A stretch of 64,000 bases of DNA from Brassica napus (Eukaryota; Streptophyta; Magnoliopsida; Brassicales; Brassicaceae): the NCBI RefSeq assembly GCF_020379485.1, contig NC_063439.1, positions 22,196,098 to 22,260,097 on the forward strand, given 5' to 3'. Numbering within the stretch: the first letter of the stretch is position 1; every line of letters starts with the position of its first letter. A program made the position numbers and the translations under genes. The notes beneath the pieces were generated by a model, which was given only the letters and a program-made list of their open reading frames with translations, was not told the DNA's origin and did not search any database. This document shows positions 7,571 to 59,723 of this stretch, one piece after another.

Positions 7571-10500
7571 ATGTCTGGTGATATGGGAGCTGAGCAAGTC
7601 TCTACCAACATGGAGGAGACTCTGAAAGCGGAGGATCCAGATACTTTTAAAGATCCGAACTTGGTTGAGATAGGATCCAACGATCTTCCTGTTCAGGATA
7701 TGAGAGTTTCAGACATTAAAGAAGAAGAGCCTGTCGCTTCACCGTGTGGCAACGGGGTGGACTTTCCGAAAGTGGAAACATCTGTCTCCGGTCCAGAGGA
7801 CGTCTGTTTTCAACCTTCTGTTCTGGCTGATTCTCAGCCGAAAGTGGAATCATCTGTCTCTGGTCCTTTGTCATTCACATCTGAGCCAGAGGGTAGCTCT
7901 TCTCAGCCTTGTGTTCTTGCTGATTCTCAGTCGAAAGTGGAAACATCTGTCTCTGGTCCTATGTCATTTGCTTTTGAGCCAGAGGGCGTCTCATCTCAAC
8001 CTTCTGTTCTGGCTGATTCTCAGTCGAAAGTGGAAACGTCTATCTCTGGCCCTATGTCATCCGCATTTGAGCCAGAGGGAATCTCTTCTCAACCTTCTAG
8101 TTTGGCTGATTCTCAGTCATTGCAGACTCGTTTGCAACCTCTCGTTCCGCGTGGATATTCTATCGATAGATCATTAGCTGCTTGTCGCAGTCCAAGGTCA
8201 TTTCAACTGACAGGGAAGCGGAAGTTACCACCAGAGTCTGCATCCGAGAAACCAAACAAGCGAGTAGAATCAGTGCATCACAGACCATGGCTAGAACAAT
8301 TTTATTCAGAGCCGGCTCATATGCCATCCGCTACTCTCTCTCCCAAGACTGAACATCCACAAGCGCCCGCCAAGAAAGTGAAACAAACGGAACCAGCTTC
8401 CCAGAGGAAGCAAGTGATGAACAAGAAGCAACCAGGCCCATCACAAGGGTCAACAAACGAAGGAAACGAGTCTTTGAGATCGAAAATGAAGGAGTCATTA
8501 GCAGCTGCCTTGGCTTTGGTTCATGACCATGAGGAATCTCCCAAAGGGAAAAAGACTTCAGAAACTGATGAAACAAGTGCTCCAGTACCTGAAAGTAATG
8601 AACCTTCCTCAGCTTGTGATGTCAGTGTTCCAGCAGATGATGTCAACGGAAGAATGTTGCAGCAACAGAGTTCCAACGACACAGAGATGAATTATGTTAA
8701 CCAATCTGATGTGCAGAAAACTCAATATGATGATGTTTTCCCCAGTGATGATGGTCCTTTTAGCGGTAGTTATTTCTCCAGCGATGAGCTTCTACAGGGT
8801 AACGGCCTCTCATGGGTTTTAGAACCTGTTTCAGATCTTGAGGAGAGAAAGGAGAACGAGGATCCAAACGTCTTGGCGTCTAAAATAGAGTTGGAACTGT
8901 TTAAGCGCTTTGGAGGCGTTAACAAGAAGTACAAAGAGAAGGGAAGGTCTCTCTTATTCAATTTGAAAGATAAGAACAACCCTGAGCTAAGAGAAAGTGT
9001 CATGTCTGGGAAGATCTCTCCTGAGCGGTTGTGTTCCATGACGGCTGAGGAGCTTGCTTCTAAGGAGCTTTCTCAGTGGAGACAAGCGAAAGCAGAAGAG
9101 ATGGCTGAGATGGTTGTCCTGAGGGATGCAGACATTGATGTGAGTCGTCTTGTGAGGAAAACGCATAAAGGCGAGTTCCAGGTGGAGGTTGATCCTGTTG
9201 AGAGTGAGATGGTGGATGTCTCTGCTGGGATCACCTCACGTAGTAGACCTCGAGCCAAAGCCAAGTCCAGTTTAAATAAAAACGACTCAGATGAGCAGAA
9301 GGCAAGTTCTGACAAGGGAGACATGACGGAGGAGGAGACTGATCCAATGCAAGGTTTGTCGATGGATGATGAGATGAAGGATGTGGGTTTCCTTGCTCCA
9401 ATTGTATCGCTTGACGAGTTCATGGAGTCTCTGAACACAGAACCTCCATTTAGAAGCCCACAACATGGGAATGCTGTAAAGGAGGAAGTGGCTGCATCTG
9501 ACTCAGGAGCTGTGTCAAATCTAAAGTCTCCTTCGAGATCTCCAAAGGAAGCTTGTGAGAGTGTTTCTCCTAAAACAGAACTCCAAAAGGCTATTGTAAC
9601 TTCCCCAAAACCGGATCCGGGTGTCAAACTCGGTGTTGATGTCTCTAAGCCAGAGGAAGAAGCACCTTTGGTTGCTAGCACTAAAGAAGAACATATATGG
9701 GAGGGTATACTGCAGCTTAGTGCCTCTTCAGTTGTCTCAGTCACCGGAATTTTCAAGAGGCAAGTCTCTCCTAATTTACCTTAGCTTTACTTGTTAGCAT
9801 TTCTGAAAATTTGCACATGATTGAATTGGGATTTGTAGTGCCAGTAATATGAATGAATCTAAGTGTAGGCTTGAATTGAGAATAGGATATTATAGGTTTT
9901 ATTGAACATTATATGTCTGACTGGATTTGGTGGGTGCAGTGGTGAGAAAGCAAAGACAAGCGAGTGGCCAACGATGGTGGAGGTAAAGGGGAGAGTGAGA
10001 CTGAGCGCGTTTGGGAAGTTTGTACAAGAGCTTCCATTGTCTAGAAGCCGTGTCTTAATGGTATTCAAAGTTTACTACTTGCATTATCATTGTAGCATTA
10101 GATTCAGTCTCTCTTGTTTGTTACTTCTACTACTACTACTACGAGAGGATTCATTCAAAGACCCACAAAATCTCTATCTCAATATTGCAAGTCATTATTT
10201 CTCAATGCAGACACAATAATAGGGCCTTCCAGAAAGCAAAAGCTCACGGTTGGTCTACATGTGTGAGACAAGACAACGAGCCCTTATTGACCAGAGAGAA
10301 TCAACAGTGGATTGAATCTGAAAGTTTTGTATTAAACAGATTCAAGAAATTTTGGATATTAAATCACTTGTGGATGTATTGTTCGGTGGCATTAACAACT
10401 TAGGATATAGAATCGTTACCAATAATCTTTTCCAGAAAGTGACAAGACCACAAAACATGGTCCATAAAGTACATGTAGATCATGACCCAAAATAGAAACT

Positions 10501-17026: not shown

Positions 17027-18201
17027 TGGAAAACCGTTAATATATACACTCTCTCGACGGTTCACTTTAAACCAGTCTCTAATATACCAAGACATCGACG
17101 GAGTTAAACCATTTATCCAAATTAAGAAACTAAATTAATAATTAATTAAATGATATTTTATCAGATCATGCTATGATTATCTGTAGTTCTGTACCAATTT
17201 ACATTACGACATCACTCGAAATTTAAGCACTAGAGTCAAATCAAATGAATTCATATTTTCTTCCTTGTTTACGAGTTTGCTGTTTTGGTATTTTCTTGAA
17301 CACTTTCCAAAGCACTTGCTCTTCGTTTTTTCAATTTCATTGACATGTAGGAGTATTACGTATCAATGTCATAGATAAGATAACCATGTCAATTCTGATT
17401 AACTAATAATTATAACCTAAATTTACGTTAAGTCACAGACACACAACTATGTTAAGCTCAATCATCACATATAAATATTACAATTTTCTTATTAAAATTA
17501 ATCAAGTACCCTAGAGTCCTATATAAGTTCGAGTCAGCAAAAAGTAATATCAAGGTTAACTAGACATTTTTTTAGCAAAAGAAAAAAAAAAGGTTAACTA
17601 GACATTTCCACGGATTTTTATATCAAGGATGACAGTAAAAAAAAAAAAAGTAAGCGGTAGCCAGTACCTTAACGATAAACAAACCCCTGAGTTTAATCCC
17701 TAAAAACTAGCATCATCACATACTATATGTGTATTTTTAACTCGGCTTTCGTTAAACTTGGGTTACTTGGACGCTAAACTAGTGGTATGATTTTCATTTC
17801 ACATTTGCCAAGTCAATTCCAAATAATAGGATTAATTTAAAAATCTTTTTATTTAGTTATTGATCATTACACTAACAGAATAATAATGAAAGACAATATA
17901 CCGTTTTTTATGTTCTCATTAAAAAAACAATACAGCCTTCGGACATCTGGGTCAACGCCAACGATGTAATAGGAAAAAGATTTGACAATCTACTAATGAC
18001 TAATCAAACATCTAAAAATAGCGATGCATATAATGTTTTACTCCACTCTCACATCTAATAATAAGAACCTGTAGCATTCACTGCTAATCTTTCTCTTTCA
18101 CAGACTTAAATCAACAACTAAAACAAAACAGAAAAATAACGAAAGAAGAGGAAGCAGAAGAAGAAGAGTGAATTAACAAAACTAAACACCATTACACTGT
18201 G
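17027..18201. other. Intergenic and promoter region upstream of the LRR-extensin-like gene
   Basis: AT-rich, with no gene seen. It includes a small A-tailed insertion with 17-bp duplication (17553-17607). The last 150 bp are the presumed leader, rich in AAC and GAAGAAG. Confidence 0.5.
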
Positions 18202-19461
18202 ATGAGGATCTTTCAACCGACCCTATTATCGTTCGCCGCGACCATCATCTTATTTTACATATCGCCCGTCGCAACCGCTTCTTATAGTGGGTCCCGGCAA
18301 CTTCTTTACGTCCGAGACGACCCAATAACGATACCTCCATACTTCGTCTTCGAAAACGTACGGCTCGAGAGAGCTTACGTGGCGTTACAAGCGTGGAAGC
18401 GGACCATGATCTCTGACCCGTGGAATCTAACGTTAAACTGGTTCGGACCCCGTGTGTGCGACTACAACGGAGTGGTATGCTCTGAATCCCTCGACGACCC
18501 TTCCATCAACAAAACTGTCTCCGGCGTCGATCTGAACCATGGAGATATCGCCGGTCATCTTCCGGAAGAGCTTGGTCTCCTCACAGACATTGCTCTGTTT
18601 CACGTCAACTCGAACCGGTTCTGTGGGACCCTCCCACTCGGGTTTTCGCAGCTGAGTCTCCTTTTCGAGCTTGATCTCAGCAATAACCGGTTCGCTGGTA
18701 AATTCCCGGAATTGGTTATCGGTTTACCGAAACTAAAGTACCTTGATCTCCGGTACAACGAATTTGAAGGGGGATTACCAGAATCTCTATTCGAAAAAGA
18801 CCTTGACGCTTTGTTTCTGAATAGTAACCGGTTCACTAGTAAAATCCCGGTTAACATGGGGAGTTCCCCGGTATCGGTTCTAGTTTTGGCGTCAAACCGG
18901 TTTGACGGATGTATACCGACGAGTTTCAGCAAGATGGGTAAGACTCTGAACGAGATCATCCTGATGGATAACGGTTTACAGTCATGTCTACCCAATGACA
19001 TGGGGCTGCTTCAAAACGTCACCGTATTGGATATTAGTTACAACTCTCTTGTCGGAGAGTTGCCGGAGTCAATGGGTCAGATGGAGAGTCTAGAGGTGTT
19101 AAACGTAGAGCGTAACATGTTCTCCGGTGTAATACCGGAGGAGATCTGTTTGCTTAAGAATCTTAGAGAATTCATATACGGGTCTAACTACTTCACTGGA
19201 GAACCACCAACGTGTCGTTATCTAGAGACTTATAATAGCACGATGAACTGTCTCAAGGATGTGAAAGTGCAGAGGTCGACGACCGAGTGTAAGGTGTTTT
19301 TGTCGAAGCCTGTGGATTGTGACTCCTACAAGTGTAGTCCTGTCACTTCTTCGTGTGTTTGTCCAGGCCATCTTTCTCCTCCTCCACCTCAGATATCACC
19401 GTTTTCTCCGCCATCGGCGCCGTCTCTTCCACCAGCGCCGCAGCCGTCTCCGAGTGCTTAA
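18202..19461 (+). CDS. Secreted leucine-rich-repeat protein with short Pro-rich tail (LRX-like, AT5G25550-like)
   Basis: A single exon of 419 residues starting at ATG 18202; the GTG codon before it is not a start. Residues 1-27 form a signal peptide (LLSFAATIILFYISPVATA). Next come an N-terminal cap with paired Cys (NWFGPRVCDYNGVVC) and about ten extracellular LRRs of the plant LxGxIPxx type (HLPEELGLLTDIALFHVNSN, LPESMGQMESLEVLNVERN). Then a Cys-rich hinge (NCLKDV, CDSYKCSPVTSSCVCPG) and a 35-residue Pro-rich tail (SPPPPQISPFSPPSAPSLPP). It has the LRX ectodomain plan but lacks the long Ser-Pro extensin domain. It probably sits in the cell wall and may bind RALF peptides as LRX proteins do. 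The frame reopens after the TAA for ten codons. Confidence 0.92.
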   Translation: MRIFQPTLLSFAATIILFYISPVATASYSGSRQLLYVRDDPITIPPYFVFENVRLERAYVALQAWKRTMISDPWNLTLNWFGPRVCDYNGVVCSESLDDPSINKTVSGVDLNHGDIAGHLPEELGLLTDIALFHVNSNRFCGTLPLGFSQLSLLFELDLSNNRFAGKFPELVIGLPKLKYLDLRYNEFEGGLPESLFEKDLDALFLNSNRFTSKIPVNMGSSPVSVLVLASNRFDGCIPTSFSKMGKTLNEIILMDNGLQSCLPNDMGLLQNVTVLDISYNSLVGELPESMGQMESLEVLNVERNMFSGVIPEEICLLKNLREFIYGSNYFTGEPPTCRYLETYNSTMNCLKDVKVQRSTTECKVFLSKPVDCDSYKCSPVTSSCVCPGHLSPPPPQISPFSPPSAPSLPPAPQPSPSA

Positions 19462-24736: not shown

Positions 24737-27562
24737 TCAGGAAGATAAAGTGGGTTTCTGAGCCTGAGATATGATTCTGAGCTTCTCGTAAGAGTCAGCA
24801 CAAGCGTGAGCATAATCAGACAATGCCCTGAAGATCTCAGGCAATCTGATCTTCAAACTATTCAGAGATTTCTCCCTCACCTGAACACAATGCCTCTGGT
24901 GAGCTTCTTCTTCATCTTCAAGCCTTTTCTTCAAACTCTCCACAACAATTCTCCTCTCAGTCACATGATCATCTTCCCCACCTTCCTCCTCCACTGGTCC
25001 TCTCTTCTCCAAATGTTTCTGATACCATTCCTCAAACCCTTGCTTCTTCCTAATAAACTCCCTCCTCGTATCTTCGCATCTCTCCTTCAGCTTCATCTCC
25101 TCCTCCTGATGAAGCAGGATCGTTCTGATAACCGCTGCGAACGACGAGATGGCTGATTTGGCCACCTCGTCGGGTAGTTTCTCGAGACGGTCGTGCCACG
25201 AGTGGAGAAGGGCTTGGATTGGCGGATGCTGAGGCCTTGGAGGAGAGGAAACTCTCTCTTTGAGACTGCTCTCTATGGGGATAAGGTTGAGCTTCAACCA
25301 GGTGTTTAGAGAGTTAATGTACTGCTTCTGATGCGTCACGAGCCTTTCGAACTGAACGTGCCATTCTTCCAAGACGGTGCAGAACTGCCGCGTCTGCTGG
25401 TGATGCTGCTTTGTTGTTTCTTTCTGAGAGGTTGAGATCTCGAGAGATTTTAGCTCTCCGACAATGTTTAGTTGTGTGTCGTGTTGTATGCACATGTTTG
25501 ACCACATCTTCGCCATCCTAGAAGAGATGTGTCACACGTTCAGAAAAATTAGTTGGCTAAAATGCTAATTTGAAGGAGAGAGAGAGAGAGAGAAGTTACC
25601 CTTCGACTAAGGAGACAAGTCTTGGATACAACTGGTCATCTCTTAAACGGTTTACTTCAGAGACAGTTGAATCCATGGATTGCATGTCGACGATGTATCT
25701 AGTGTGGAGATGACTCACGGCAGCCTTTGTTTTCTCCACGGTTTCTGCACTTGCGCCTCTTTTTTTATACCTGTTGAGTAAAGATACCTTCTTCTGATAC
25801 TCTATCTTCATAAGCTCACCTTGCTTTAAAAGAGAGAAAAAAAAAATGTATTCAACTAGACATATCCTTCACACACGTAAGGTAGTAGAGACAAATGATC
25901 AGCTAGCTAGCTACCTTGACTTCATCATAGAGTTTCTTCTCCCATGCTAACAATTTGTCCAACACGGTGGCGTGAGTCTCATGCTCATCTGATTCTTGAT
26001 CTTCTTTCCCACCTTCGCCGTTTGAAATGCCTCTCAATGATTTGTTCCAAGTTATAACCCGCATCACCCTAGCGGAATGATCAACATATCCTGATAAAAA
26101 AAGAAACAACACTTTGCAATAATGGAAGGGATAGGGAGAAAAGGATGTTAAAGTGTTTGATTACTCAAATCTATAACTTTGTTTAATATCTTTACACGTG
26201 AATAAGCAAATAAGAAAACCACCAGAGTCTATTAACTTAAAAGGTTCATTATTGGATTCTCAGACAAATGTCAAAGTAGACCATACCAAAAAAGTGCAAC
26301 GTAAAGGAATATTGCAGACACTAAACCATGATCTGATCTACAAAAATAAAACTCTTTTAACTAAAGTTTTTTGTCTTAGAATGCCTTGTAATAAAGCTGA
26401 ACCAGAGAACAATCACAATATACGACCAAAGGAAGTGTGAGTATTTTGGGTTTAGAAAAACACAATAATAAATGTATGATTCAATCAAAAAAAGAATAAG
26501 AGAAAGAAGAGGAGTTGAATATAGCATACCTCTGTTATCAGCAAAATTGGAGTGATAATGTAACCTTGTTGCTTCCAGCATCTTGGAAACCTCCTGTGCG
26601 CACTCTGACGCTTTCAAGAACCGATCATCAATCCCGTCCAGAATCTTCATCAGATTCACGTCTGACGCCGTGGTCGCACGCCGGAACTCCGGTGGAGCAG
26701 TGTTGGCATGCTCAATCTTATTCTTAGCTCTACCTTTCTCCTCCTCCTCCTCCTCTTCTTCTTCAACTTTCTCAGGTGTCTTTGGCTCCATCTCCTCAAC
26801 ACCAATGTGACCTGAGTTCTTACGGAACATGCCAGCTTTTTCCTCCTCCTCCTTCTCCTCCTCTTCTTCTTCTTCAATCTCTTCATTAAAGCGAAAGTTA
26901 TGATTTTTTTGAGACTCAAACCCGTTTCCAACTTCCCTATCTTCTAAGTCAGGCCCAGGCACATTCTCCACCATGAAAAAGTAATCCCAAGCCAGGTTAC
27001 TCGCCGGCGACGCACTCACAACCTCCGGCGTCTCTTGTCTCTTCCTACCCTTCCCAACATTCTCCGGCGTTCTCGGCGAAGACTCTTCCTCCTCCTCCAC
27101 CTTACCAACACCCTCCTCCTCCTCCTCCTCCTCTTCCTCTTCATCTTCCTCCTCAATCGCCATATCATCAACACCACCCTTAACCTTCCTTCCTCTACCC
27201 GCCACACCCGTCGGCAAGCTCACGGCCCTTTTGATCGGAGAAGGAGAGAACTTCGGGAGAGGCGGAGGCGGAGGAGGGAGACTCTCGATAGGCGGAGGCG
27301 GCGGAGGAGCGGGATCCACCACCGCGGCGCGTTCGCTCTGTTTCTCGAAACGGCTCTGTTCCAAGAGATCCAAGGTTTGGTCGGATTCGCCGTGGCCGTA
27401 GTCGCTGAGAGCGGCTCCGGTGTTCTTTAACGCAATGGCGTATGCGAAATGGCCGGCGGCGAAAGCCTTGCTCGCCGTGACCGCTTCCTTGATTACGTTA
27501 CGCCGCTCTTTGCATCTCGCCACCGACTCTTCGTTGTCGACCTTAGATTGCGCACACCCCAT
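24737..27562 (-). CDS. DUF630/DUF632 protein, N-myristoylated type (AT5G25590-like)
   Basis: Four exons, 27562-26530, 26090-25915, 25823-25600 and 25517-24737, give 737 residues. The N-terminus MGCAQSKVDNEESVARCKER is the DUF630 head. Gly2 and Cys3 suit myristoylation and palmitoylation, so plasma-membrane attachment is likely. Residues about 85-330 are low complexity: polyproline (PPPPPPIESLPPPPPPLP), then long Glu runs. DUF632 begins near ATTASDVNLMKILDGIDDRF and continues through KLLAWEKKLYDEVK, MQSMDSTVSEVNRLRDDQLY, NSLNTWLKLNLIP and LPDEVAKSAISSFAAVIRTI, as helical coiled-coil-like segments. The N-terminal end is followed by a presumed promoter at 27563-27840. Relatives include APSR1 and the NRG2 nitrate regulator; the specific role here is unknown. 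Long antisense frames over the Glu runs are artefacts. Confidence 0.93.
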
Positions 27563-27959
27563 CGTGAACCCTCGGAGGTTTTTTGAGAGAGAGATGGAAA
27601 GGGAGTGAGTACTGACACAGTGAAGGACAAAGATGCGCACAAAGAGAGAAAGAAAGAGGTGTTGTGATAATTACCACGCGCCACCGCGAGTGGAGTTTAT
27701 CTTTATGTACCTACTTCTCGTCTGAATATCCATATATATATTTTTTAAAATAGGCTGTCCTAACGGTCGGTCACATATCTCAACGCACTACGGCGTCGTA
27801 TTCTGCATAACCTTTATAACACCGTAACGCTTTGTATCCGTTCAATCAACACACGAATGAAAATGCTTCTTTTGGTTTCCTTTTCTATTTTGCTCCTCTT
27901 TTCTTTTCTTTTGATCAAATCTTTTTTGTTTCCTTTTTAACGGTTTGAGCTGCAAGAGT

Positions 27960-29403: not shown

Positions 29404-31432
29404 CTAGTAGCTGAACCAAACAACATGGGTTTCAGGGAGGAAATGGCAGACCGGAACACTCCCAGGCTTCACCTTAAGGACTTTAAAGGCCAAGTGGTTT
29501 GGGTTCCACGCCGAGGTGTTCTTGTGACATACCGCAACCGCTTTAGCACGCAACCCGTTCTCTCCTTCGAGGGGAACCGCGTAAACGCTCGTCATCATCG
29601 CCTTGTGGCAGTAGAACACAGCGAATGGGTACTTCTGTTTGTGACACACCACCGACTTGTCGTCTGACAACTTCTTTACCCCAGCCGCTGCGATTCTGTA
29701 CTTTTGCATCGGTGCATTCTTCTCAGCCACCTGTTGAAGCCAAGGTTACATGTCAACCAGAATATTAGACATAAACACATTAGGCGTTGACAGAATATTA
29801 GACACACTAGACCGAACCAAACGTAAATGTCTTTTCTTATTTTCAAACCAAATAAACTAAACCTAGGGGTTTCAACCAGTTTTTGAGTATAAACAATTTA
29901 TATGTTTCTTATTATTAGCTGAAACCGCACCGAATTCAAACTAAATATAAAGAAAATATAAGTGAAGACCTAAAAAACGAGCATAACCAAACCTAGTTGC
30001 AAATATTTTATTTAGTTTATTGTTTTTTTTGTCAAAATTTAAGTCTAATCAAACATAGCCGACTTGCTTTGGGAAAGCCTAAACAATTGAGTAAAGGGGT
30101 TTAGCAAAAAAAAAAAGTAACAATTTAAAGGCTTATTTTTATATATTTTAACTCAAAAATATTTAAAACTATTTCATTTGGCTATGTTCAAGCCATACCG
30201 GAAAAAAAAGATTAGCTTATGTTTTTTTTTTGTACCTCAGTGGAGACAGCACGAACGTGATCTTTGCCAAGTTTAGAAACGCTAAAGTCCACCATCGACT
30301 CCAAAGACGTAGCACAATACTTCTCCTCTCCACCGACTCTTTTCGCTTCACACTCCTCAATCGTTTTCTTCATCATCTCTGCTTCTCCCGAGCCAGGTTT
30401 CACCGAGAACGTGTTCAAGATCTCCGAGAACTTCTCAGACCCGAACGGCACCGTTTCCGCCTCTCCACGTGGCAAGAACGCAGTTTTGCCGTCGTAGCCG
30501 TCCTCCGCATTAAACCTGAGGTTCATAGCTTTTCCGGGAACCATGTCTTTCTCCAAGAAGAAGAGAGCCGCTTTGGGATCGTCGTGGAGCTGAGTCTCAC
30601 TCGCTGCATAGTTATACACAAAAGGGTTATGTCCTGGTTTCACCCCAACGTAGACCGGCTTTCCCTTGTGGCGCGTGTGCACTATAACGCCACCTTTGCC
30701 AACTCCTACGTCGGTTCTCTTTCCTGGCTTCCCGGTGTGGACGCCGACGCCTCCTCCGTGGCCTTTTCCACCGCTAACGCTCACGTGTGTTCCCTTACCC
30801 TTGCCGGTGTTCACATGTACACCTCCCTTTCCAACGTTCACGGCGGTTCCTCCGCCAGGCTTACCTTTTCCGGTGTAAACGTTCACGCCTCCTTTCCCTA
30901 CTTGGACGTTGGTGCTTTTCTCGTCGCTAAAATCTGCAACAATGAAATAATTTGGTAAGGAGACATCAATCGGCTACTAACGTACACTTCCAAAAATTAC
31001 TAGCGATTGTATAACCAATCAACTTGTGACACATAACTTCAAATACATGTTATAAATAGTAGTATAATATATAGGAATTGTAATAAGTACTCAACCATAT
31101 TTTTCTTTGCATTTAGGTCTATCATTTTCCATTTCTTGTATCTCTGTAAATATAAAACTTGGAAAACATTTTAAAGTATAGAAAATCATAATATATATAC
31201 ATAAGCAGATCCTAGAGAAATTAGAAATTAACAGTGTTTCACAAAACTAGAAGGAAACAAATATGGCATGTTAAAGTGAAAAAAAGTTTCAACCAGACGT
31301 AAAAAGATGGCGAAGAGAGTTTGGTATGGGAGTGTTTGGTAAGGCAGAGTTCCAATAACGCTCCGGTGTTAAATCAGCCGCAATGGCCGTGACTGAAACA
31401 AGGAGGCATATCAACGAAAGACGAATCGCCAT
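29404..31432 (-). CDS. RD22: BURP-domain protein RD22 (dehydration- and ABA-responsive)
   Basis: Three exons, 31432-31294, 30933-30236 and 29730-29404, give 387 residues (I recall 392 for Arabidopsis RD22). A signal peptide (RLSLICLLVSVTAIA) is followed by the BURP family's conserved Y-W-L-P segment (LTPERYWNSALPNTPIP). A Gly-rich TxV repeat region follows (VNVGKGGVHVNTGKGKG; about residues 60-140). The C-terminal BURP domain begins FFLEKDMVPGKAMNL and has the spaced Cys-His pairs in VVCHKQKYPFAVFYCHKAM, AVAVCHKNTSAWNPNHL and VPVCHFLPETHVVWF. BURP proteins are apoplastic; some are now known to be copper-dependent peptide cyclases, but no such activity is shown here. Position next to YUC6, despite the 25-kb insertion, supports orthology with AT5G25610. 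The upstream region keeps the known drought/ABA motifs. Confidence 0.95.
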
Positions 31433-33641: not shown

Positions 33642-34773
33642 TATCAGTTAGTGATATACATATAATGTACATGAAAAAGGCAACATCATGCGTAGCAAGA
33701 TTTCTTATCCTCTTTTTTCTCCATTTCATTTTGATTCTTTATTCCACCCTTTCTGTTTGAATTCTTAGTTATTTTCAAATAGTCGGTTTTGAGTTTTCAA
33801 TTAGAGATCTAGTTTTTTCTTGAGTTTTCAAGAATTAAGTTTTCAATCCATCAATACTATTAAAACTGAAGAGCCTTTTTTGAAGCCTCCTTCAAGTTTT
33901 GAAGTATTTACATATCTCTGCCACTGATATCTTTTTAGTCTATGCTTTTAATTAAATATTTTTATTTTATTTTTGTAAATCACAGTGATTATCCATTCAG
34001 TATTTAGAGTATTTAAACGATTCACACTATGGTTTATTTAAAGCAAGATTATTCTACGGTAACTGAAGATAAACAGACTTTTTTTTTTTGATAAACAGAC
34101 TTTAATATTTCAAGAACTGAAAAAAATAAGACTTACAAAGCAAATATGGAAATAAAACCCAGAGAGAGATCGCATCGTCCTCTTCACCACCATATTGTTC
34201 TTCCAGCGCCATGTTCACATCTTCCTTCTTCACCCGTTCATCATCAAAGTTTATACCTGTAATGTTTGAAGTTTAGTACTCTACATGTAAAGCACGATAG
34301 TCTACAACTAAATCACATACCAAAATCACTACAAGAAAACATATTTTTTACGAGGGCAATATACGTTGTAATTTCGTCGTAAACGGGGTGTTACGACGAA
34401 TGAACCTCGAAACACGTTTCGTCGTAAAACGCCCGTCGTAACCGACGTTTCGTCGTAAATGACTTGTTAAGTTTACGACGAAATATATTCCTCGTAAAGC
34501 GCAGGGCAGAGATTCGTCGTAAACGACACGTAAAATTTCGTGGTAAACTCCACGTAACGGATTCGATGTAAAGCACACGTAAACATTTTCGTTGTAACAC
34601 CCTCGTAAATATTTCGATGTAAACTCCACGTAACATTTCGATGTAAAGACCACGTAAAAACTTCGATGTAAAAGACTCGTAAATATTTTCGACGGTAATC
34701 AGTAGTAAATGTTTACGTCGAGCCTACATCGACGTTTCGTTTTATAATATATTTTGAATATTGTTTTTAACCT

Positions 34774-34821
<48 letters not shown>

Positions 34822-34953
34822 AATTTATTTAAAATTCAGAATTTTAAATAATTTTAATTTTAAAACGAAATATGAAAATAAAAAACATATATAAAAAAAC
34901 ATTTAAAAGTCTTAATATTTAAATTCATAATACAAACCGAAATATTAAAAAAA

Positions 34954-36607
34954 CTACATATCATCGAAGTAGTCGGTGGGGTAGCTCGGCTGTTGACGGG
35001 TTGGATCGGACTCTTGGGGATCTCGTACTGGCAACCCAAGAGCGGCTCGTCTCTGACTCAACATTCTCTGCATAACCGGGTTTCCCACGACCATCACGTC
35101 TAGCAAATCCTCAAGAGAGTCTAAACGAACCTGCTGGCTATTCATTCGAGCTTTCATCTGAGAAGTCTTTTCATCCCGTCTCGAAGTGTATGACGAAGTT
35201 GCCCTTGCAACTTGGTTAACAGAGCCTATACCGACTATTCGTCCCTTCTTTCTAGGAGCCAGCTATAAAATTAAAACATATATTAATATAGTTATTAAAA
35301 ATAATGTAAACAAAATTTTTTAGTTGTACTACCTCTTCGAAGATTCTGTCGGCTTCTTCGGTGGACAATGTGACGGGTAATCCATCGGGAGACTCCTGAG
35401 TTAGTTGCATCTCCCGTTCTTCAATCCGAGTAGCCACTGCTTGAGCGAGTTTCTCAGATGCAGGATCTACAAAAACTCCGTCGGATGTGGCGTGAGTCAT
35501 CTTGAATAGGTCAGACAGAGATGGTAAGACTCCCGTCTTCTCCAACTACAAAAAAAAAATATTAAAAATTATATTAATTGAATATTTTAAAATAAATATT
35601 TAAAAACAAAACTTACAACTTCTAGACGGATGCCTGCATGTGGTTTTTGGCCGGTTCTGTGAAGCATGGGCAAATTACCATCTTTATCCTTCGTTCTTCG
35701 AGAAGCCGAGCACGAATTGGCCTTTTTGATCGAAGAGGGGTGCTTCCAATAGGAGATGAGGCCATCCCACACATCCTTCGTGAGCTCAGTGGGCTTTCCC
35801 TCATACCCGTCGAGCTCCCACTTGTCCTTCCAATCGGAGACTGTGTTGCAGAGGCGGATCTTTGCTTTTGCAACGAATTCCGCCTTCACCATCTCGGTGA
35901 TTCCCAAAGACCAATGTCACTTTTGCTGAAACACAAAAAATTTGAAAAAATTACATATAATAATAATATTTTAAAAATATATACATATTTAAAAGTGAAA
36001 ATTTAATTAAATTTAAAAATCTTACCGCAAACATTTTAAACCAAGTGATCTTAACGTGATTTGGAGTCTTGCTCCAGTTCGGACATGCCCCGTCGTAGTA
36101 ACCTTTAATCGTTTTCGAAACGCTCCGGCCAACACGGTTGTTAGCTCCAAACCTGAAAGGAAAACAATTTAACCGTTAGAAAATAAAAATAATTTAAATT
36201 TTAATGTAATAAAAATTAATAACTTACCAATAAGTTCCTCGGGGTCTATCGGGGTCTAGAACATCCAAACCCTCCCGTCCAGGCTGGGCAAGCAAATCCT
36301 CTACCGTATATCTCGCGAATGGGGCATATGAAGGCACACGCAAATCCGGATGAACTGCACCTTCTGGGACAGGCTCAGGTGCAGCCGCTGGAGGAGGAGG
36401 TGGAGGCATATGCGGTGGAGGCATTTGCGGTGGAGGCATCTGCGGTGGAGGAGGACTCCAAGCAACTCTCTGAGAAGGCTGAGAGTCTGGAACTGCGGTG
36501 GAGGATGATGGACCGGAAGACGATGGACCGGAAGAAGATGTACCGGAACCATCGTCGCCAAACATATCTTTATAACTAGCTGCTCTGGATTTTCTTCTAG
36601 GAGCCAT
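34954..36607 (-). pseudogene. TNPA-like second CACTA protein (Ptta/En/Spm plant transposase, Transposase_24)
   Basis: Exon 1 begins at 36607 (MAPRRKSRAASYKDMFGDDG) with a Ser- and Pro-rich low-complexity section (MPPPQMPPPHMPPPPPP) and ends near 36230. Further exons lie at about 36150-36030 (RSVSKTIKGYYDGACPNWSK, VKITWFKMFA), 35920-35600 (AKIRLCNTVSDWKDKWELDG, PTELTKDVWDGLISYWKHPS), 35545-35335 (DGVFVDPASEKLAQAVATRI) and 35262-34954 (RKKGRIVGIGSVNQVARATS, the stop after YFDDM). The segment around ELTKDVWDGLISYW matches the plant Ptta/En/Spm domain. A TGA at 35917-35919 is in frame at the start of the third exon if the nearest acceptor is used. Exon ends are estimates. In CACTA elements this protein binds subterminal repeats and assists the transposase. 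Confidence 0.75.
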
Positions 36608-36845
36608 CTAAAAAAAACTAAAATAAATTTAATCAGTTACGACATAATAAAAATATTATTCCGTTACCTAACTAATCACCTAAACTAATTACCTAACTAA
36701 TCACCTAAACTAATTCCGTTACCTAACTAATCACCTAAACTAATTTAAAAAAAAAAAAAAAGAGAGAAGAGAGTGTTTACCTTAGAGAGAGCAAAGGAAT
36801 TTGGGAGGAATGAGCGAGGCAGCCTTGCTCTCGGCGTCTCCTTAT

Positions 36846-37035
36846 ATAGATTAGGATTCGTCGTAAAAGCGACGTAAATTTACGACGAATTTACCAGGCC
36901 CGCGTTTTTCCATTTACGACGAATTTACCAGGCCCGCGTTTTTTCATTTACGACGAAATTACCAGGCCCGTGTTTTTTGTTTTACGACTAAATTACCAGG
37001 CCCGTGTTTTTCCATTTACGACGAAATTACGACGC
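36846..37035. repeat. Four tandem copies of a TTTACGACGAA...ACCAGGCCCG unit between the CACTA genes
   Basis: Units of about 40-48 bp repeat TTTACGACGAA(T/A)TTACC followed by AGGCCCGCGTTTTT. They lie upstream of the TNPA-like start (36607) and include the same ACGACGAAA core as the subterminal repeats. They may be internal binding sites controlling TNPA-like expression; this is inferred. Confidence 0.6.
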
Positions 37036-37212
37036 TTAACCCTAAACACCGAGAATGAAATCCCTAAACCCCAAAGTCACATATCATCTAACATCATATC
37101 TTATTTCATACTACTTCTTACTCTTTCTTTTAGAAAATGTTACAATAGAGAAATCCAACATTTGATACATATATTACATCACTCTAAAGTTTTCGTTCTC
37201 ATCACTATTACA

Positions 37213-40200
37213 TCACTCTAAATCGTTTTCGTTCTCATCACTATCATTACAATCATCATCGTCGCTTCTCTCGAACTCGTCTTCACGTGCTTCATCTGTC
37301 GCATCTTCGGGAATATCTTCATATTGAAAGTTTTGCGGGTCGATCAAAAGGATTTCATCAGTTGGTTGTTTGGTACCTCAACTTCAGTGATAGCGTATTC
37401 TTCTTGCAAGGGCGGTTCTTCTCCAACGACAATGCGTCCACGAGGTGTAACTTTGATAGCAGTTACCCAGTTTATCCCGGAAGTTCGAAGCCGAGGATAA
37501 GGAAGGAAGCTAACTTGCTCGGCTTGTGAAGCTAAAATGAAAGGCTCAAATTTGTTGTATCTTCTCCCAAAATTGACATCCACAACACCAAATTTGTTAT
37601 ACCGAATCCCTCGGTTCACAACAGGATCGAACCATTCACATTTGAAGAGGACGCATTTTAGCTTCAATAACCCCGGAAATTCCACTTCAATAATCTCCTG
37701 CAATATCCCGTAAAAGTCTGTTTCACCTTTCACACATATTCCGTAGTTACTCGTTGCCCGATGTCTCCCATACTCGTATGTGTGAAAGGTAAATCCTCGT
37801 GTGAAATACATAGGTGATGTGGTGACCTTTGCAACTGGACCTTGAACCAATTCGTGAAACCATACGGGATAATAAGGATCGTCATAATCAACCTGCAAAA
37901 AACATATATATATTCTTAAACACTTACTTAATTAATATAATAGTATGAGATATATTACCTGCGATTTTAACCACTTGACAAAGTGCTTATCTTTACGTGT
38001 ATCCACATCAGTTGCAGATATTCCTGGTATTGCTTCTTCAACTTGAGATACAAACATCCTGCAAATTGAACAAATAATCAAATCATACATAATTAACTTT
38101 AATTCATATAATTAACATTCACAAAAATATTTACCTTTCAAAGTAACGGGTCATTACATCCTCGCAGTTGAGCAGAATATAAGTGTGGGCACTATGTTTA
38201 TCTTCTTCACATGACCACCATACTTCTTTCGTTTTACCACCAAACCGTCCAATTTCGCAGAAAATGTCAGGAACACCATCAATTGGATATGATGTCGGTA
38301 CTCCACCATCATCATATCTCCTAGGAACTTTTTTTCTCGTACGAACAGCTGGAGCAAAGTAGTATGATGTGAAGTTAGATGTTTCGGCTGTCAAACTCCC
38401 TGCAACTATTGAACCTTCTACCTTTGCAAGATTTCTTGCTTTCCCCTTCAAATGTTTCATCTGTCGCTCATACGGATACATCTATCCGTTGTGAACAGGT
38501 CCACGAAGCAATGCTTCATACGGTAGGTGGACAACTAGATGCTCCATGACGTCAAAAAATGAAGGAGGAAATATCTTCTCCAGGTTGCACAATATGATCT
38601 GAATGTTCTGATGAAGTTGTTCGATGACTTCTTCTTTGAACGTACGTGTGCTAAGATCTCTGAAAAATGCTCCGATGGCTGTATATTTTAAAAGGAATCA
38701 AATTAATAACATTTCGTAACATATGTATATATAAATTTATAATTACCTGCAAGTGCTTCGTGGACATTTGCTGGAAGGAGCTCGGCAAAAGCAAATGGAA
38801 GCAGTCGTTGCATAAACACATGACAATCATGACTTTTCATTCCGGAGAACTTTTGACCTCGTTCAATACATCTTGACATATTTGAAACATAACCATCAGG
38901 AAACTTAACTTCCGATGCAACCCAGTCAAACAAGGTTGTTTTGGCTGCTGATGACAACCGGAAGATGGGAACATGAACGTTTCCATTGCTCTTGATATGT
39001 AACTCACTTCTTGAGCAAATATCAGGTAAGTCCATCCTTGACTTTTTGTTATCTTTTGTCTTCCCAGGGACGTTAAGTAATGTATTCATGATGTTCTCAA
39101 AAAAGTTCTTCTCGATATGCATGACATCCAGATTGTGGTGTAAGAGAAGATCCTTCCAATAGGGTAGCTCCCAAAATATACTCTTCTTAATAATCAATGT
39201 CCGCTTCGATCTGCTGGCCGGTGAGATATGGAGGAGGACTGTCTCTGACAATTTTTTTGTGTCGAAACAATGTCTTATTTCTTCTGTACGGATGGGCAAG
39301 TGGAAGAAACCGACGATGACAATCAAACCAACAACTCTTCCTACCATTCTTCAGTTGGAAAGCATCCGTGGATCCAAGACAATACGGACAAGATAATCTT
39401 CCATGTGTTGTCCAGCCAGACAACATCCCATAAGCAGGGAAATCACTTATCGTCCACATCAGAACTGCTCGCATCGTAAAATTGTTTTTCAAAGAACAAT
39501 CGTACGTCCTCACCCCTTCTGACCACAATTGCTTTAGCTCTTCTATCAACGGTTGAAGAAAAATATCAAGAGACCGTTTTGGATGCTTCGGCCCTGGGAT
39601 TAATATGGTCAAAAATAGAAATTCTTGTTCCATGCACATATCCGGCGGTAAATTATACGGCGTAAGAATGACTGGCCACAAAGAATATTGTCTACCAGAC
39701 ATTCTAAATGGACTAAATCCATCGGTGCATAACCCAAGATAGACATTCCGAATATTTGTAGCAAAATCTCCGTGTACCTTGTTGAAATGTTTCCACGCTC
39801 TTGCGTCTGATGGATGTGCAACCTCACCATCTCTCTGGACATGTTCGGCATGCCACCTCATCGACGCAGCAGTCCTCTCAGATTGATATAATCTTTTCAA
39901 TCTGTCTGTAATTGGTAGGTACCACATCCTTTGGTACGGTACCCTATTCCTCCCACGGCCTTGCGGTTTGAATCGTGGTTTTTTGCAGAATCGACACTCT
40001 TCTAACTTGTCATTTTCCTTCCAGTAGATCATGCAGTTGTCGATGCAAACATCAATCATCTCCGAGGGTAACCCAAGACTATAAACCAATTTCTGAATCT
40101 CATAATAAGATTCAGCAGACACGTTGTCTTCTGGCAAATACTCTTTAAACAACTCCGCCCATGCATCCATGCAATTCTCAGGTAAATTATGATCCATTTT

Positions 40201-40791
40201 AATATTCATCATTCTAGCTGCTAGAGACAATTTAGAGAGACCTTCTCTACAACCAGTGTAGATTGGTTGATTTGCAGCATCTAGCATTTCATAAAACCTT
40301 TTTGCATCCAAATTAGGTTCTTCTACATTTCTAGTTCCATCTGCTATTGTTGTAGTTGTTTCTAAAAATGCATCACTAATCATATCTTGAACCCTATCAT
40401 GATCTACCATCTGCGTCTCTTGATGATAATTATATTCATTATGCACATAATTCAGTTCTTCATTATGATGAGCAACCTCAAAATTAGCATTACTACTACT
40501 AGCTTCATTTCCCCCATAACCCTCTCCATGTTGATACCAAATGTAGTACTGTGGTGTAAATTCTCTGTTTACTAAATGATTCCATACAGTTTCACTACGT
40601 GCAAATTTCGAATTCTTGCATTTTGAACAGGGGCAGAACATCTTACCGCTTTCCTGCGTGATCGGTGTACAGCCCGCCTGGTGCATGAATGTCTCTAGCC
40701 CGTTCAGAAATGCATTTGTCACTCTCCCATCGGAATCTTTGTGCAAATACATCCAACTTCGTAACTCGTAAATACTACCGCCACCGACCAT
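37213..40791 (-). pseudogene. TNP2-like CACTA transposase, disrupted
   Basis: The start at 40791 is MVGGGSIYELRSWMYLHKDS. An N-terminal transposase-associated domain with CPCSKCKN follows, then the tnp2/Transposase_21 core (PENCMDAWAELFKEYLP, YLPITDRLKRLYQSE, GPKHPKRSLDIFLQPLIEEL, WTISDFPAYGMLSGWTTHG). DUF4218 (HNLDVMHIEKNFFENIMNTL, MYPYERQMKHLKGKARNLA) and DUF4216 (DDPYYPVWFHELVQGP, LKCVLFKCEWFDPVVNRG) complete it. The end is acidic (DDDDCNDSDENENDLE, stop 37213-37215). Lesions: a deletion with frame change at about 39183-39190, where IEADIDY jumps to KKSIFWELPYW; TAG at 38482-38484, where the family has Trp before MYPYERQ; and an apparent 1-bp loss near 37365-37372, before TDEILLIDP. An in-frame ATG at 40887 lies at the TATA box and is not used. 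This copy should not encode a working transposase. Confidence 0.85.
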
Positions 40792-40851
40792 TTTTTCTTC
40801 TATTTTTTTTTTAATTTTTTTTTCCGTTTGGGTCTTGTGAGGAAGAGATTT

Positions 40852-40900
40852 GTGTGTTGTGAGGAAGAGAGTTGTGGAAAATGACATATATATAGAGAAA
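40852..40900 (-). promoter_or_regulatory. Transposase core promoter and leader (proximal copy)
   Basis: On the minus strand a TATA box CTATATATATG (40895-40886) precedes a leader with TTCCTCACAACACAC, about 60-95 bp upstream of the TNP2 start at 40791. The block recurs almost unchanged at 41443-41492. Confidence 0.6.
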
Positions 40901-41146
40901 TTTTTGAGTTGGGTAGTTGAAATATAACAACGATTTTACAAGAAAACTTTTACATGGATTTTACAGAGTTTTTTTACAACGACTTTACAACGAACTTCGA
41001 TAAGTTTTTCACCTAAATATATAGGTAACATGATTCGTTGTAATATCGATGTAAAGTTTTCTTTTCGACGTACTTACGTCGTAATATTACATGGCGTTTA
41101 CGACGAAATTTGGTTTCGTTGGTTTCGTCGTAATTGCGTTGTTAAC

Positions 41147-41406
41147 CCACCATTTACTAATTCTAAGACAACGATAAGGAACCTGTGTCGTTCGTCTGTC
41201 TGCCAATTCAGTGGAACGACAAGGAGAAAGTGGACGGAAGTGCAGCTGGTTTGTACTTGAGAGGAACCTTTGACGATGGTCGGAGGTTCCACTCAAGTAT
41301 AAACCAACTGCACTTCCCTCCATTTTCTCCTTGTCGCTCCACTGAATTGGCAGACAGACGAATGACTCATGTTCGTTATCGTTATCTTCGAAATAGTAAT
41401 TGGTGG
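41147..41406. repeat. EDM2-derived inverted repeat (123-nt arms, 14-nt loop) inside the CACTA element
   Basis: Arm 1 (41147-41269) and the reverse complement of arm 2 (41284-41406) are both 123 nt and differ at 14 positions (about 89% identity). A perfectly paired 25-nt block is at 41191-41215 / 41338-41362. The loop is 41270-41283. Arm 1 on the plus strand reads DNDKEPVSFVCLPIQW, then NDKEKVDGSAAGLYLRGTFD. Arm 2 on the minus strand reads NYYFEDNDNEHESFVCLPIQ, then WSDKEKMEGSAVGLYLSG. This matches the N-terminal part of plant EDM2 and its EDM2-like paralogue as I remember it (EPVSF..LPIQW...EKVDG...G.YLRG). Shared gaps-free alignment and conserved codon phase show both arms came from one coding source. 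A transcript from either strand would fold into a long near-perfect hairpin suitable for Dicer-like processing. Processing and targeting are inferred. Confidence 0.85.
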
Positions 41407-41418
41407 CTGAATGAGGAG

Positions 41419-41492
41419 TTGTGTGTTGTGAGGAAGAGAGTTGTGTGTTGTGAGGAAGAGAGTTGTGGGAAATGACATATATATAGAGAAAT
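41419..41492 (-). promoter_or_regulatory. Second copy of the transposase promoter/leader, reading into the EDM2 hairpin
   Basis: The minus-strand TATA box CTATATATATG at 41486-41477 and the downstream leader (two tandem copies of TTCCTCACAACACACAAC, 41461-41419) duplicate the block at 40852-40900, 591 bp away. The leader runs directly into hairpin arm 2 at 41406. Subterminal sequences beyond it are also duplicated (TGATTCGTTGTAAT at 41031 and 41603). Confidence 0.65.
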
Positions 41493-42355
41493 ATGGTAAG
41501 TTTTACATGGATTTTACATGGAAAATTTACAATGCGTTTACAACGAATTTAGGTAAGTTAAAGCACATTAAATACACGTTGTCACCTTTATATAACGGTA
41601 ACATGATTCGTTGTAATGTCGATGTAACGTTTACAACTATTTCGCATTCCACGTACTTTCGTCGTAAACTTACATTGACTTTACGACGAAAATATTTCGT
41701 CGTAAATTACCATGGAGTTTACGACGAAGTTATGTCTCGTCGTAATTGCGTTGTAAAGCGTATGTAAATTTACGAGGAAATTATTTCCTCGTAAAACGCT
41801 GTTGTTACTGCTACGTTTTCTTGTAGTGAATGTACACCAAAAACCACAGAAAATGCAATAATTATTCATTTCAAGTTGCAGATTATTAATTGAGAGACGA
41901 GGAACACAAGAAGAAACTACATACATAATTCATGTTGCATTTTATTGGAATATTTTTAATCTATGATTTTAGTTAGATGTTTTTTTTTTATGAAACTCAC
42001 AGATAACCATCTCATTATTCTGTATAATCTTTTTCCACTTATTTAGTTAATTTACTGTGTGTAATTATATACAAAATTCCCATTTATTTTGAATATAAAT
42101 TTCGAGATTAACAACTATGAAACAAACTCGCTAAGTTTATTTGCAAATCTTTTTTTTCAAATGCAATTCTTAAAAAAATCTAATTTTTAACTAAGCATAA
42201 ACTGGTATAAAATAGCAACTACATTGTGATATTCTATCTCAACTGAACAACTTCAATCATTCAAAAAAATTAATCATATATGTATATCCCCAGAATATTC
42301 CTAATTAAAACGATTTTATATGTTTACTATCCTAATAGTTTTCTAGCGATAGAAA

Positions 42356-57052: not shown

Positions 57053-59723
57053 TTAGGCTTGATCAGGTTTACTTGACATGAACACTTGGATATGTCTATG
57101 GGCTTGATCAGATTTTCTTGAACACTCGTATATATCTTGAGCTATTCTCTTTGCATCCATTGATGCTCCCGAAATCCCACGTTTTGTGAACCCCACCGCA
57201 TATAGCCCACATTCCCCTCTCCATCCCTCCGGAAACTCTTGTATTGGGAATCCATCTTTCTTACTAAACATTTTATTTTCCTGCAAAATTATTTGTTTAT
57301 TAGAAAAAGATGTAATGCGACCTCTTGATAAATATATATTTGTATATTCTTACGAAAAGATAATTTTGATAAAGATTTTAATGATCGTTTTAAACAAAAG
57401 TGAACATATGTAAAATAACTATATTATCATTATTGACTACCTTTAGCCAAGAGGGTACGTTGCTTTTGTAGCCAGTTGCCAATATTATGGCATCAAATCT
57501 CTCCTTTTTCCCGTTATCGAACTCAACTTCGTGCCGTTTTAACCTTCTTATCCCCGAACACACCTTTTGTTATTACAAATCAAATATCACAATCAATAAA
57601 CCGGTTATTAGTGTAAATATATATGATTGAGATATACGGTACCTTGATATCTCCTGTTTTGATCTTGGCAAGCGTCCCCACGTCGAGAACCGGGGTTTTG
57701 CCGGTGAGATTTTTGAGCTCCAATGGACCTAACCGGGGTCGGTTAAGACCTAACAGGGTGGTATCCCCGAGGATGAACCGGGAAACAACCAAGAGGAAAC
57801 GGTCAACAAGCCGGATGGGCAACCATCTGAGTAACAACATGGACAGCCCAAAAGTTGAAGTACCCAACATCTCTCGTGGTAGGACGTGCACCTTCACCAG
57901 TTAAAAATAAACAATTAGCAAATATGGATTTATAAACCTCAGAAGAGAACATCATATTCTATCTATATTTTAAATGTTTAGAGACTATGATTTTTGTGAG
58001 AATGTTTGCGCGTGCTTGTGATAATCCCAATAAAGCTTGTATTCTTATAGTTCTCATTCTCTACAAATACTATAAAAATAGTATTTCCGAATTACAGAAA
58101 TTAGGTAAACCTCTTTATTTAAAAAACTATATTAACAAATTGTTGGAACTTGAAGTCACAAGGGCCTAAAAAGACAGAATAAAATCTTACGGATGAATAC
58201 CATCCTTTGCATTTTCAGTATTAAAAAAAAAACAGACTAATAAAAAAATCAAATGTGAATATTATCAAACTGAAAAGCAAAAGAAGTATAAACTATTTTC
58301 AAATTGTTACTGTAAAAGTAAAAGCACACAAAAATTAACAGCGTGCAAGAACGTTTCTTCTGAAATCTCCAGCTAGTATTAAAGAGACACTAATGATTAA
58401 ACTACAATTAGTTTGTATAAATAATTGGGTTCTTTATGAAAATAGTACAAACGAAATAGATTTTTTTGAAACACTTATTAGTATTGATAAAATCTTGTTA
58501 AAGGGATTCGATTAATAAGAAGAGTAAAGAAAATTTTGGAAAAACATCTTCAAGTTAATGATGTTTAAGATGGAATGATGAGTGTTAATATGTTATCAAA
58601 GTTCTTTTCATCTTTTCAAATATTTGAGGAACATATTTTTTGTTCTCTCTAAAGTTCGTTTAACTTAAAACATATTCATAAACGGGTTAAGGGATATTAT
58701 CTTGTACAATCAAAATCAAATAATCTTATATCGATTTCAACCAAAAATCAGGAAAACACAGAATCATGAAAAGTGTAGGTAATATTTCTTTTTCTTTTGA
58801 ACTTGAAAGTAGGTAATATCTTGAGTTTGAAAAATAAGTTAAGAATATCAGAAGATCAACACGAATTAAAAAAAAAACAATTATGTGATTCTTCTAGCAT
58901 AGAAGAACTCTACCAAATATGAAAGAGCCAAAAAAAAAACTAATATCGGTACGCATAAGAAAACGTTGATTTAATAAATCTCAAAACTTCTTAAAATAAG
59001 AAGAACGAAAAAAAAAATACTCACAGCGTCTCTGACAACGAGAGAAGGCTGAGCACCGAAGTTGCATAGATCCAAACAAACCTCCATGCCGGAGTTTCCA
59101 CATCCGACGACCAAAACCCTTTTTCCTGCGAAATCTCCACCGGTCTTATAATGACTCGTGTGCTTAACTACCCCCGTGGCCGCAAACTTCTCCATCCCCT
59201 CAAACCTAGGGACCACCGGCTCTGCATTCTCCCCCGTCGCAGCCACCAACCACCGGCAAACATACTCCGTCATGCCTTCTTTACCCACGCTCCTCACTCG
59301 CCACATCCCGAGTTTCTCATCAAACTCCGCCGACTCGACCGTCTGACCAAACTCCGGTCGTATATCGAACCTACGAGCGTAGTCCTCGAGGTACTCGATG
59401 AACTGCTGTTTTGTCGGATAAGTTGGGAAGTCAGCGGGAAAGGGCATAAGCGGAAGCTCGCAGAATTGCTTTGGAAGGTGGAGACTGAGGCGGTCGTATG
59501 TCTTGAGCTGCCATAGTGACGCTATGCAGTTTGATCTCTCGAGTAATACCGAAGTTATTCCTTTCTCTTTGAGACAAGCCGCCGTCGCTAGTCCTGACGG
59601 TCCGGCGCCTACGATCACCGGACCGGTGAAGACGCAGATGCGGCGTTGTGACGTCATCATGCCGTGGTTGGAGGACAAGTAGTCATTCGCTAGGTTACCT
59701 TCCATCTCTTTCTTCCAATCCAT
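57053..59723 (-). CDS. YUC6: YUCCA6 flavin-containing monooxygenase (auxin biosynthesis)
   Basis: Four exons, 59723-59025, 57891-57643, 57563-57441 and 57280-57053, give 432 residues. YUCCA enzymes convert indole-3-pyruvate to indole-3-acetic acid using FAD, NADPH and O2. The FAD motif GAGPSG is at 39-44 and the NADPH motif GCGNSG at about 207-212. The FMO-type segment is [20 protein letters not shown] and the conserved late motif is [14 protein letters not shown]. Exon 2 starts [19 protein letters not shown], strongly YUC6-like, and location next to RD22 agrees with AT5G25620. Intron 1 is 1.1 kb. The C-terminus is about 15 residues longer than I recall for Arabidopsis YUC6 (417) because of a short tandem duplication (SDQA ... 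KPDQA). A TATA box lies at 59780-59787. Cytosolic or ER-associated action is inferred from the family. Confidence 0.95.

Follow-up and report, generated by a model that had tools for sequence, protein, structure and literature searches.

A Brassica CACTA transposon carries an EDM2-derived hairpin between two copies of its putative promoter segment

The DNA analysed here, hereafter the window, is a stretch of 64,000 nucleotides of Brassica napus (contig NC_063439.1, positions 22,196,098 to 22,260,097 of assembly GCF_020379485.1). It contains a complete CACTA (En/Spm) DNA transposon, in which a 270-nt inverted repeat derived from the start of the host gene EDM2 is located between two copies of the putative promoter and leader of the transposase gene. 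EDM2 is a plant regulator of gene and transposon silencing, a PHD-finger protein linked to the dimethylation of histone H3 at lysine 9 (H3K9me2). At the level of the DNA sequence the capture of EDM2, the duplication of the promoter segment and the multiplication of the arrangement to at least 125 loci are established. The features on which the argument rests are the following.

34327 to 41828, minus strand (transposase genes): complete CACTA (En/Spm) DNA transposon, 7,502 bp, with terminal inverted repeats identical at 14 of 14 positions and an AAT target duplication
41142 to 41274, plus strand (EDM2 sense): arm 1, EDM2-derived, predicted to form the EDM2-antisense 3' arm of a promoter-driven minus-strand transcript
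41279 to 41411, minus strand (EDM2 sense): arm 2, EDM2-derived, predicted to form the 5' arm of that transcript
41219 to 41267, plus strand: 49-nt stretch of arm 1 that matches codons 41-57 of EDM2 on contig C38 exactly; the minus strand here is a perfect antisense sequence to the mRNA of that gene
41286 to 41334, minus strand: arm 2 counterpart of the 49-nt stretch, five mismatches, identical to EDM2 in none of 111 copies
41419 to 41753, minus strand: outer putative promoter/leader copy, before the hairpin, TATA box at about 41479-41485
40828 to 41141, minus strand: inner putative promoter/leader copy, before the transposase gene, identified by alignment to the outer copy

The EDM2-derived hairpin and its putative promoter

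The arms of the inverted repeat (41142-41274 and 41279-41411) comprise 133 nt each, are 86% complementary and are separated by a loop of 4 nt. The preliminary description of this locus, made from the letters alone, gave two arms of 123 nt with 89% identity and a loop of 14 nt, which is the same inverted repeat in a trimmed form. Arm 1 and arm 2 differ at 18 positions and by no insertion or deletion; eight of these differences are transitions, and five of them would give G-U pairs on a plus-strand transcript and three on a minus-strand transcript. The near-perfect duplex that had been expected is borne out by folding, since the region 41130-41420 folds at -199 kcal/mol, compared to a mean of -75 kcal/mol (standard deviation 5, z-score -25) for 200 shuffled sequences, none of which equalled it. 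Plant MIRNA loci are characterized by precursors of up to about 300 nt that fold back on themselves and have few mismatched positions in the 21-nt duplex. The hairpin of the window is of this kind, with at most four mismatches between the arms in 112 of 113 21-nt windows, no indel and a length of 270 nt. No Rfam family reached its gathering score in the window, and sub-threshold matches to microRNA (miRNA) precursors in Rfam were ascribed to the fold and not to homology. In plasmid, viral and prokaryote collections a single 20-mer match was obtained, to a bacterial bin (L001); this bin has no longer match to the window, and the 20-mer was judged to be chance.

The assignment of both arms to the N-terminal part of EDM2 was upheld by nine EDM2 proteins, seven of them from named Brassicaceae, which match both arms in tblastn with E-values from 1e-11 to 4e-18 and have no other match in the window at E <= 0.1. 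A search with an EDM2 protein sequence retrieved the plant EDM2 family, with 707 matching proteins, of which 120 were listed. The genome (search space 997 Mb) contains two EDM2 genes, with first exons at C38:5537158 and C262:9587325 (fetched as L052 and L053), which were labelled EDM2-A and EDM2-C, respectively. Its ten contigs of about 20-45 Mb are probably the A chromosomes and its nine contigs of 48-74 Mb the C chromosomes. Arm 1 is 91% identical to EDM2-A and 90% to EDM2-C, with longest exact matches of 49 and 43 nt, and shares 29 and 23 of its 113 21-mers with the two genes; arm 2 is 88% and 89% identical and shares 2 and 11 exact 21-mers. A large number of mismatches to the EDM2 family had been named beforehand as a point that would speak against targeting; instead the hairpin is, by sequence, near-perfectly complementary to both resident EDM2 genes. 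Of the 25-nt block at 41191-41215 that had been favoured as small-RNA region, the perfect pairing was confirmed, but it is not the best candidate, since the longest exact EDM2 match is the 49-nt stretch at 41219-41267. A degenerate EDM2-like first exon (L056, G000:C38:5530886-5531119) lies about 6 kb upstream of EDM2-A and has three mismatches to this 49-nt zone.

The outer and the inner promoter/leader copy are 84% identical over 290 aligned columns (score 275, compared to at most 53 in 200 shuffles), and the part with the TATA box and a CT-rich leader is 95% identical (41419-41492 and 40828-40901). Both copies point in the same direction, and the hairpin (41411-41142) occupies the gap between them exactly. 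The inner copy is without the outermost 75 bp, which carry the terminal repeat. We infer that the duplicated segments are promoters and that the outer copy drives transcription. Located between two copies of the transposase promoter and leader, the hairpin would therefore possess its own predicted TATA-box promoter, and a transcript driven by it would have arm 2 (EDM2 sense) at its 5' side and arm 1 (EDM2 antisense) at its 3' side. Such a layout would result if two neighbouring element ends had fused with a captured piece between them, in line with the Pack-CACTA model (PMC13317346). Of 40 copies, 39 have the leader motif adjacent to the hairpin and, as far as the short slices used extend, 33 have the TATA motif; in a second subfamily all four tested copies contain both motifs.

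Copies, subfamilies and coding part of the element

A count of the hairpin's copies, which had been suggested in the preliminary description, gave a high number. The DNA search of the genome, in which the best 40 of 140 candidates were scored, revealed 40 hairpin copies with 96-100% identity, and a protein search with the EDM2-like protein P0128 was scored for the best 150 of 276 candidates. Taken together, EDM2-derived arms are present at at least 125 distinct loci, a number that omits the two EDM2 genes and the degenerate tandem EDM2 exon. For the comparison of the arms a set of 105 copies was used (the window, L010-L048 and L057-L121). Both arms were identified in 104 of them; in the remaining one, L022, which matches the whole hairpin, both arms were mislabelled as arm 2, so that arm 1 is represented by 104 sequences. 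Every one of these 104 shares an exact 21-mer with both EDM2 genes.

The 20 best-ranked copies of the DNA search were fetched as slices of 9.9 kb. In 19 of them the block of promoter, hairpin and promoter aligned completely or almost completely; the exception, L013, is without the innermost 117 bp including the inner leader. Both element ends lie inside the slice in six copies, all of which have matching 3-bp target duplications. In a further sample of 40 copies ranked by their flanks (see below) both arms were labelled in 36, or in 37 when L022 is counted. Remains of the start codon of EDM2 were found in 10 of 40 copies.

The copies with two stops in an arm form one group, which is found on the nine long contigs, while other copies lie on the ten shorter contigs or, in some cases, on small contigs. 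The two hairpin subfamilies divide by contig class, with one on the long contigs C243-C485 and the other on the shorter contigs C1-C234. As many copies of the long-contig class score equally, a separate recent burst of this subfamily in one subgenome is suggested.

Two forms look older. L054 (G000:C116:6905941-6906498) is an internally deleted CACTA copy with an inverted repeat of EDM2 from the ATG to about codon 88; its arms comprise 208 nt at 97% and 66 nt at 100% with a loop of 11 nt. The arms follow the same leader directly, with their start slightly upstream of the EDM2 ATG, and beyond them lies sequence similar to the transposase region at 37124-37370 of the window. Among the copies examined, no hairpin of the family is longer or more perfect. 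The other form, L055, has arms of 173 nt which are 94% complementary. All forms have in common a change from GCC to GTC in the codons for FxCLP compared to both EDM2 genes, and one capture is therefore enough to explain all of them. Hairpin-derived peptides occur in protein records of B. rapa, B. carinata and B. napus (the B. napus record P0136 matches the hairpin), which indicates that the hairpin family is not confined to one genome.

The assignment of the element to the CACTA superfamily was confirmed by its ends, its target duplication and its transposase domains. The terminal inverted repeats CACTACAAGAAAAC are identical at 14 of 14 positions at both ends, a 3-bp duplication is found next to them, and the transposase is of the TNP2 type. 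These and the other coding features are given here.

34324 to 34326, no strand: left target-site duplication AAT, matching the right copy
41829 to 41831, no strand: right target-site duplication AAT, matching the left copy
39190 to 40791, minus strand: TNP2-type transposase reading frame (Transpos_assoc PF13963, Transposase_21 PF02992), shortened by a small deletion
38134 to 38697, minus strand: DUF4218 pieces of the transposase gene
37347 to 37931, minus strand: DUF4216 part of the transposase gene
35255 to 35916, minus strand: Transposase_24 (Ptta/En/Spm) pieces of a second transposon gene

The Pfam scores of the transposase domains are E=1.3e-77 for PF02992 and E=6.7e-18 for PF13963. Pack-TYPE elements are non-autonomous and without transposase; the window copy has transposase domains and falls outside that class. 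About 87 bp of transposase coding sequence are missing at position 39189, which disrupts the frame of the window copy; they are present in 12 of the 20 fetched copies, the rest being not comparable at that site, and the frame extends further in one compared copy. The subterminal repeats TTTACGACGAAA / TTTCGTCGTAAA are dense near both element ends (34345-34720 and 40900-41800) and possibly represent transposase-binding sites. Elsewhere in the window plant gene pieces were labelled by Pfam as PP2A B56, TFIIS central domain, LRR, DUF630/DUF632, BURP and flavin monooxygenase-like; they lie at 5324-6574, 7514-9784, 18199-19461, 24737-27640, 30212-30886 and 58971-59723.

Asymmetry of the two arms

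The two arms are not equally similar to EDM2 in the 49-nt zone. In the 105-copy set this zone is identical to EDM2-A in 93 of 104 sequences of arm 1 and in none of 105 sequences of arm 2; with nine more loci the numbers are 99 of 110 and 0 of 111. Changes were considered common when found in at least 5% of the copies of this set, with one change shared by all arms excluded, while rare changes reflect the decay of individual copies. Within the zone arm 1 has no common change and arm 2 has ten, compared to ten and seven rare ones. Outside of it the arms have ten and nine common and 24 and 19 rare changes. Fisher tests gave p = 0.005 for arm by zone and p = 0.003 for common and rare changes by arm within the zone. 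A 1-nt deletion in arm 2 is found in 43 of the 105 copies.

As the protein search ranked the copies by EDM2-like similarity, and such a ranking favours the asymmetry, two other rankings were examined. In 40 copies ranked by similarity to the whole hairpin, with common changes defined as those in at least three copies, the zone contains one common change in arm 1 and eight in arm 2, and seven and five rare ones. The second ranking used the flanks only (best 40 of 1,298 candidates scored, 421 bp fetched per copy) and again yielded one and eight common changes, with six and five rare ones; the mean number of mismatches to EDM2-A in the zone is 0.25 for arm 1 and 5.9 for arm 2. In the 421 bp fetched, L123 is without an arm, and L122 and L125 contain a fragment of an arm only.

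The direction of the asymmetry is the same in every sample and its significance is modest, and a signal of selection for the matched antisense arm is suggestive only. The matched arm is the arm that would be made antisense by the independently identified putative promoter, and in this respect two independent observations agree.

A putative hairpin RNA aimed at EDM2

We propose, with a probability of roughly 0.6, that the hairpin represents a gene for a hairpin RNA, or a young miRNA gene, which is carried by the transposon, aimed at EDM2 and convergent with rice miR820 and its target OsDRM2. In this account a Brassica CACTA element acquired the beginning of the host gene EDM2, made an inverted repeat of it and set this immediately behind a second copy of the putative transposase promoter. 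When the outer promoter is active, a minus-strand transcript starting near 41455 would fold into the hairpin, from which Dicer-like enzymes would release RNAs of 21-24 nt. The products of the 3' arm, antisense to 41219-41267, would form a perfect duplex with the mRNA of EDM2, whose level would fall through cleavage and/or through methylation of the first exon. As the outer promoter duplicates that of the transposase, EDM2 would drop in those cells in which the element is active, and the net effect would be a miR820-like interference with host chromatin control. Judged from the sequence, the most likely course is that a promoter-driven hairpin RNA is diced and that its 3'-arm products repress EDM2. 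Production of small interfering RNAs (siRNAs) or miRNAs, repression of EDM2 and counter-defence gain in likelihood from the number of copies, the promoter duplication and the EDM2-matched antisense arm; transcription, small RNAs, repression of EDM2 and a possible gain to the transposon are inferred. A bolder version would see here a dedicated anti-host RNA gene of a Brassica CACTA lineage, in which the duplicated promoter drives the EDM2 hairpin, the antisense arm is kept matched while the other one drifts, and the spread in both subgenomes is partly due to lowered EDM2; it would be a convergent and independent counterpart of miR820, aimed at a chromatin reader and not at a DNA methyltransferase. 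This version is tentative and in our opinion falls somewhat short of even odds.

Several points weigh against the proposal. The 49-nt zone was chosen after inspection of the data, and the corrected tests are borderline: label shuffling over all positions and both arms gave, after correction for the scan, p = 0.034 for the longest stretch free of common changes and a second value of p = 0.05, random positions within arm 1 only gave p = 0.10, the comparison of common and rare changes by zone in arm 1 alone gave p = 0.085 (Fisher), and the flank-ranked sample gave p = 0.07-0.09. Between the window and L045 the whole hairpin differs at 10 of 270 positions and the flanks at 2 of 100 and 2 of 57, and other pairs are mixed. 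Nucleotide diversity is below that of the flanks in the hairpin-ranked samples; conservation of the whole hairpin was nevertheless dropped as an argument, as a hairpin-based ranking is biased and the pairwise comparison yields no clear excess over the flanks. Searches of open-access papers for 12-mer strings of the arms and of the 49-nt zone gave nothing relevant by title among the matches listed. For Arabidopsis edm2 mutants, PMC7529245 reports H3K9me2 gained at 1,124 and lost at 612 transposable elements, and transposable element transcripts, mostly of retrotransposons, of which 241 are up and 243 down. As these effects run both ways, a simple release of CACTA silencing cannot be assumed.

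The same borderline tests, and a conservation of the whole hairpin that is not clearly above the flanks, would be expected if the hairpin were a by-product of the Pack-CACTA type that hitch-hiked to high copy number, is silenced together with its element and has no effect on EDM2, with an asymmetry due to chance. A duplicated 5' end around the insert suits capture by tandem insertion as modelled in PMC13317346, and three of the 40 flank-ranked copies have in the fetched 421 bp no arm or a fragment only. However, every examined form is an inverted repeat directly behind the promoter and leader with the matched arm in antisense orientation, and ten common changes in the other arm against none in the antisense arm of the same zone speak against a passenger. 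We regard this explanation as unlikely, though it deserves to be taken seriously.

It is rather improbable that the siRNAs of the hairpin serve host silencing or cause collateral damage, with 24-nt siRNAs methylating EDM2 in trans, a mode of action known from captured gene fragments, and no gain to the transposon. Long and near-perfect forms such as L054 would fit siRNA processing better than that of miRNAs. But since the arms are derived from EDM2 nearly from end to end, such siRNAs would miss the element's own genes, and one arm has stayed matched to EDM2 in both subfamilies. That the locus encodes an EDM2-like decoy peptide is hardly credible. There is a 153-codon minus-strand frame which is open through the hairpin, and similar peptides are predicted in Brassica records. 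Yet in-frame stops interrupt arm 1 both in the window and in the majority of the listed copies, the frame continues through antisense sequence, and the deletion in arm 2 shifts the frame in many copies; the peptide-coding reading was rejected for these reasons. Longer predicted proteins with hairpin sequence were not found at E <= 0.01 among 695 candidates.

In one model, young plant MIRNA genes arise by inverted duplication of their target. The EDM2 hairpin resembles them in a foldback that is similar to the target along both arms, one of which stays close while the other one drifts, but it is carried and multiplied by a transposon, and its small RNA is predicted. To our knowledge rice miR820 has been the reference case for a small RNA of a transposon that is directed against a silencing gene of the host. 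This precedent, which had been invoked in the preliminary description, is supported by PMC3459959, according to which miR820 is located inside CACTA elements and derived from OsDRM2, Nipponbare having five copies and the BB genome at least 18. Both systems have a CACTA host, a foldback from a gene of epigenetic control, copies that multiply with the element and a small RNA, here predicted, that is complementary to the donor gene. They differ in the plant family and in the target, which is a DNA methyltransferase in rice and the PHD-finger, H3K9me2-linked EDM2 in Brassica. The Brassica hairpin also stands behind a duplicate of the transposase promoter and is found at at least 125 loci, compared to the five and at least 18 copies given for rice. 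For miR820 the small RNA and the cleavage of its target have been demonstrated (PMC3459959), while the EDM2 hairpin is known as DNA.

The capture of gene fragments by Pack-CACTA elements or transduplication (Catoni et al. 2019, as summarised in PMC13317346) likewise leads to a host gene fragment enclosed by the ends of a CACTA element, where it is surrounded by signs of a fusion of two element ends; in contrast, the Brassica element retains transposase genes and its captured piece is an inverted repeat. The VANC protein of VANDAL elements is an anti-silencing protein by which related elements become hypomethylated (PMC13317346). It is comparable as a transposon-encoded interference with host silencing, but it is a protein that acts on related elements, whereas the EDM2 hairpin would be an RNA acting on a host gene. 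In open-access literature on EDM2 together with small RNAs, CACTA, gene capture, transposons or inverted repeats, no report of the hairpin was recognized by titles and abstract starts among the matches listed.

If the proposal is true, it would add a second and independent case, in another plant family and with another regulator, and counter-defence by captured hairpins would appear as a recurrent strategy. In Arabidopsis EDM2 also affects the expression of NLR immune genes and IBM1 (PMC7529245). A mobile EDM2 hairpin at at least 125 sites could thus have an influence on epigenetic as well as immune variation in oilseed rape.
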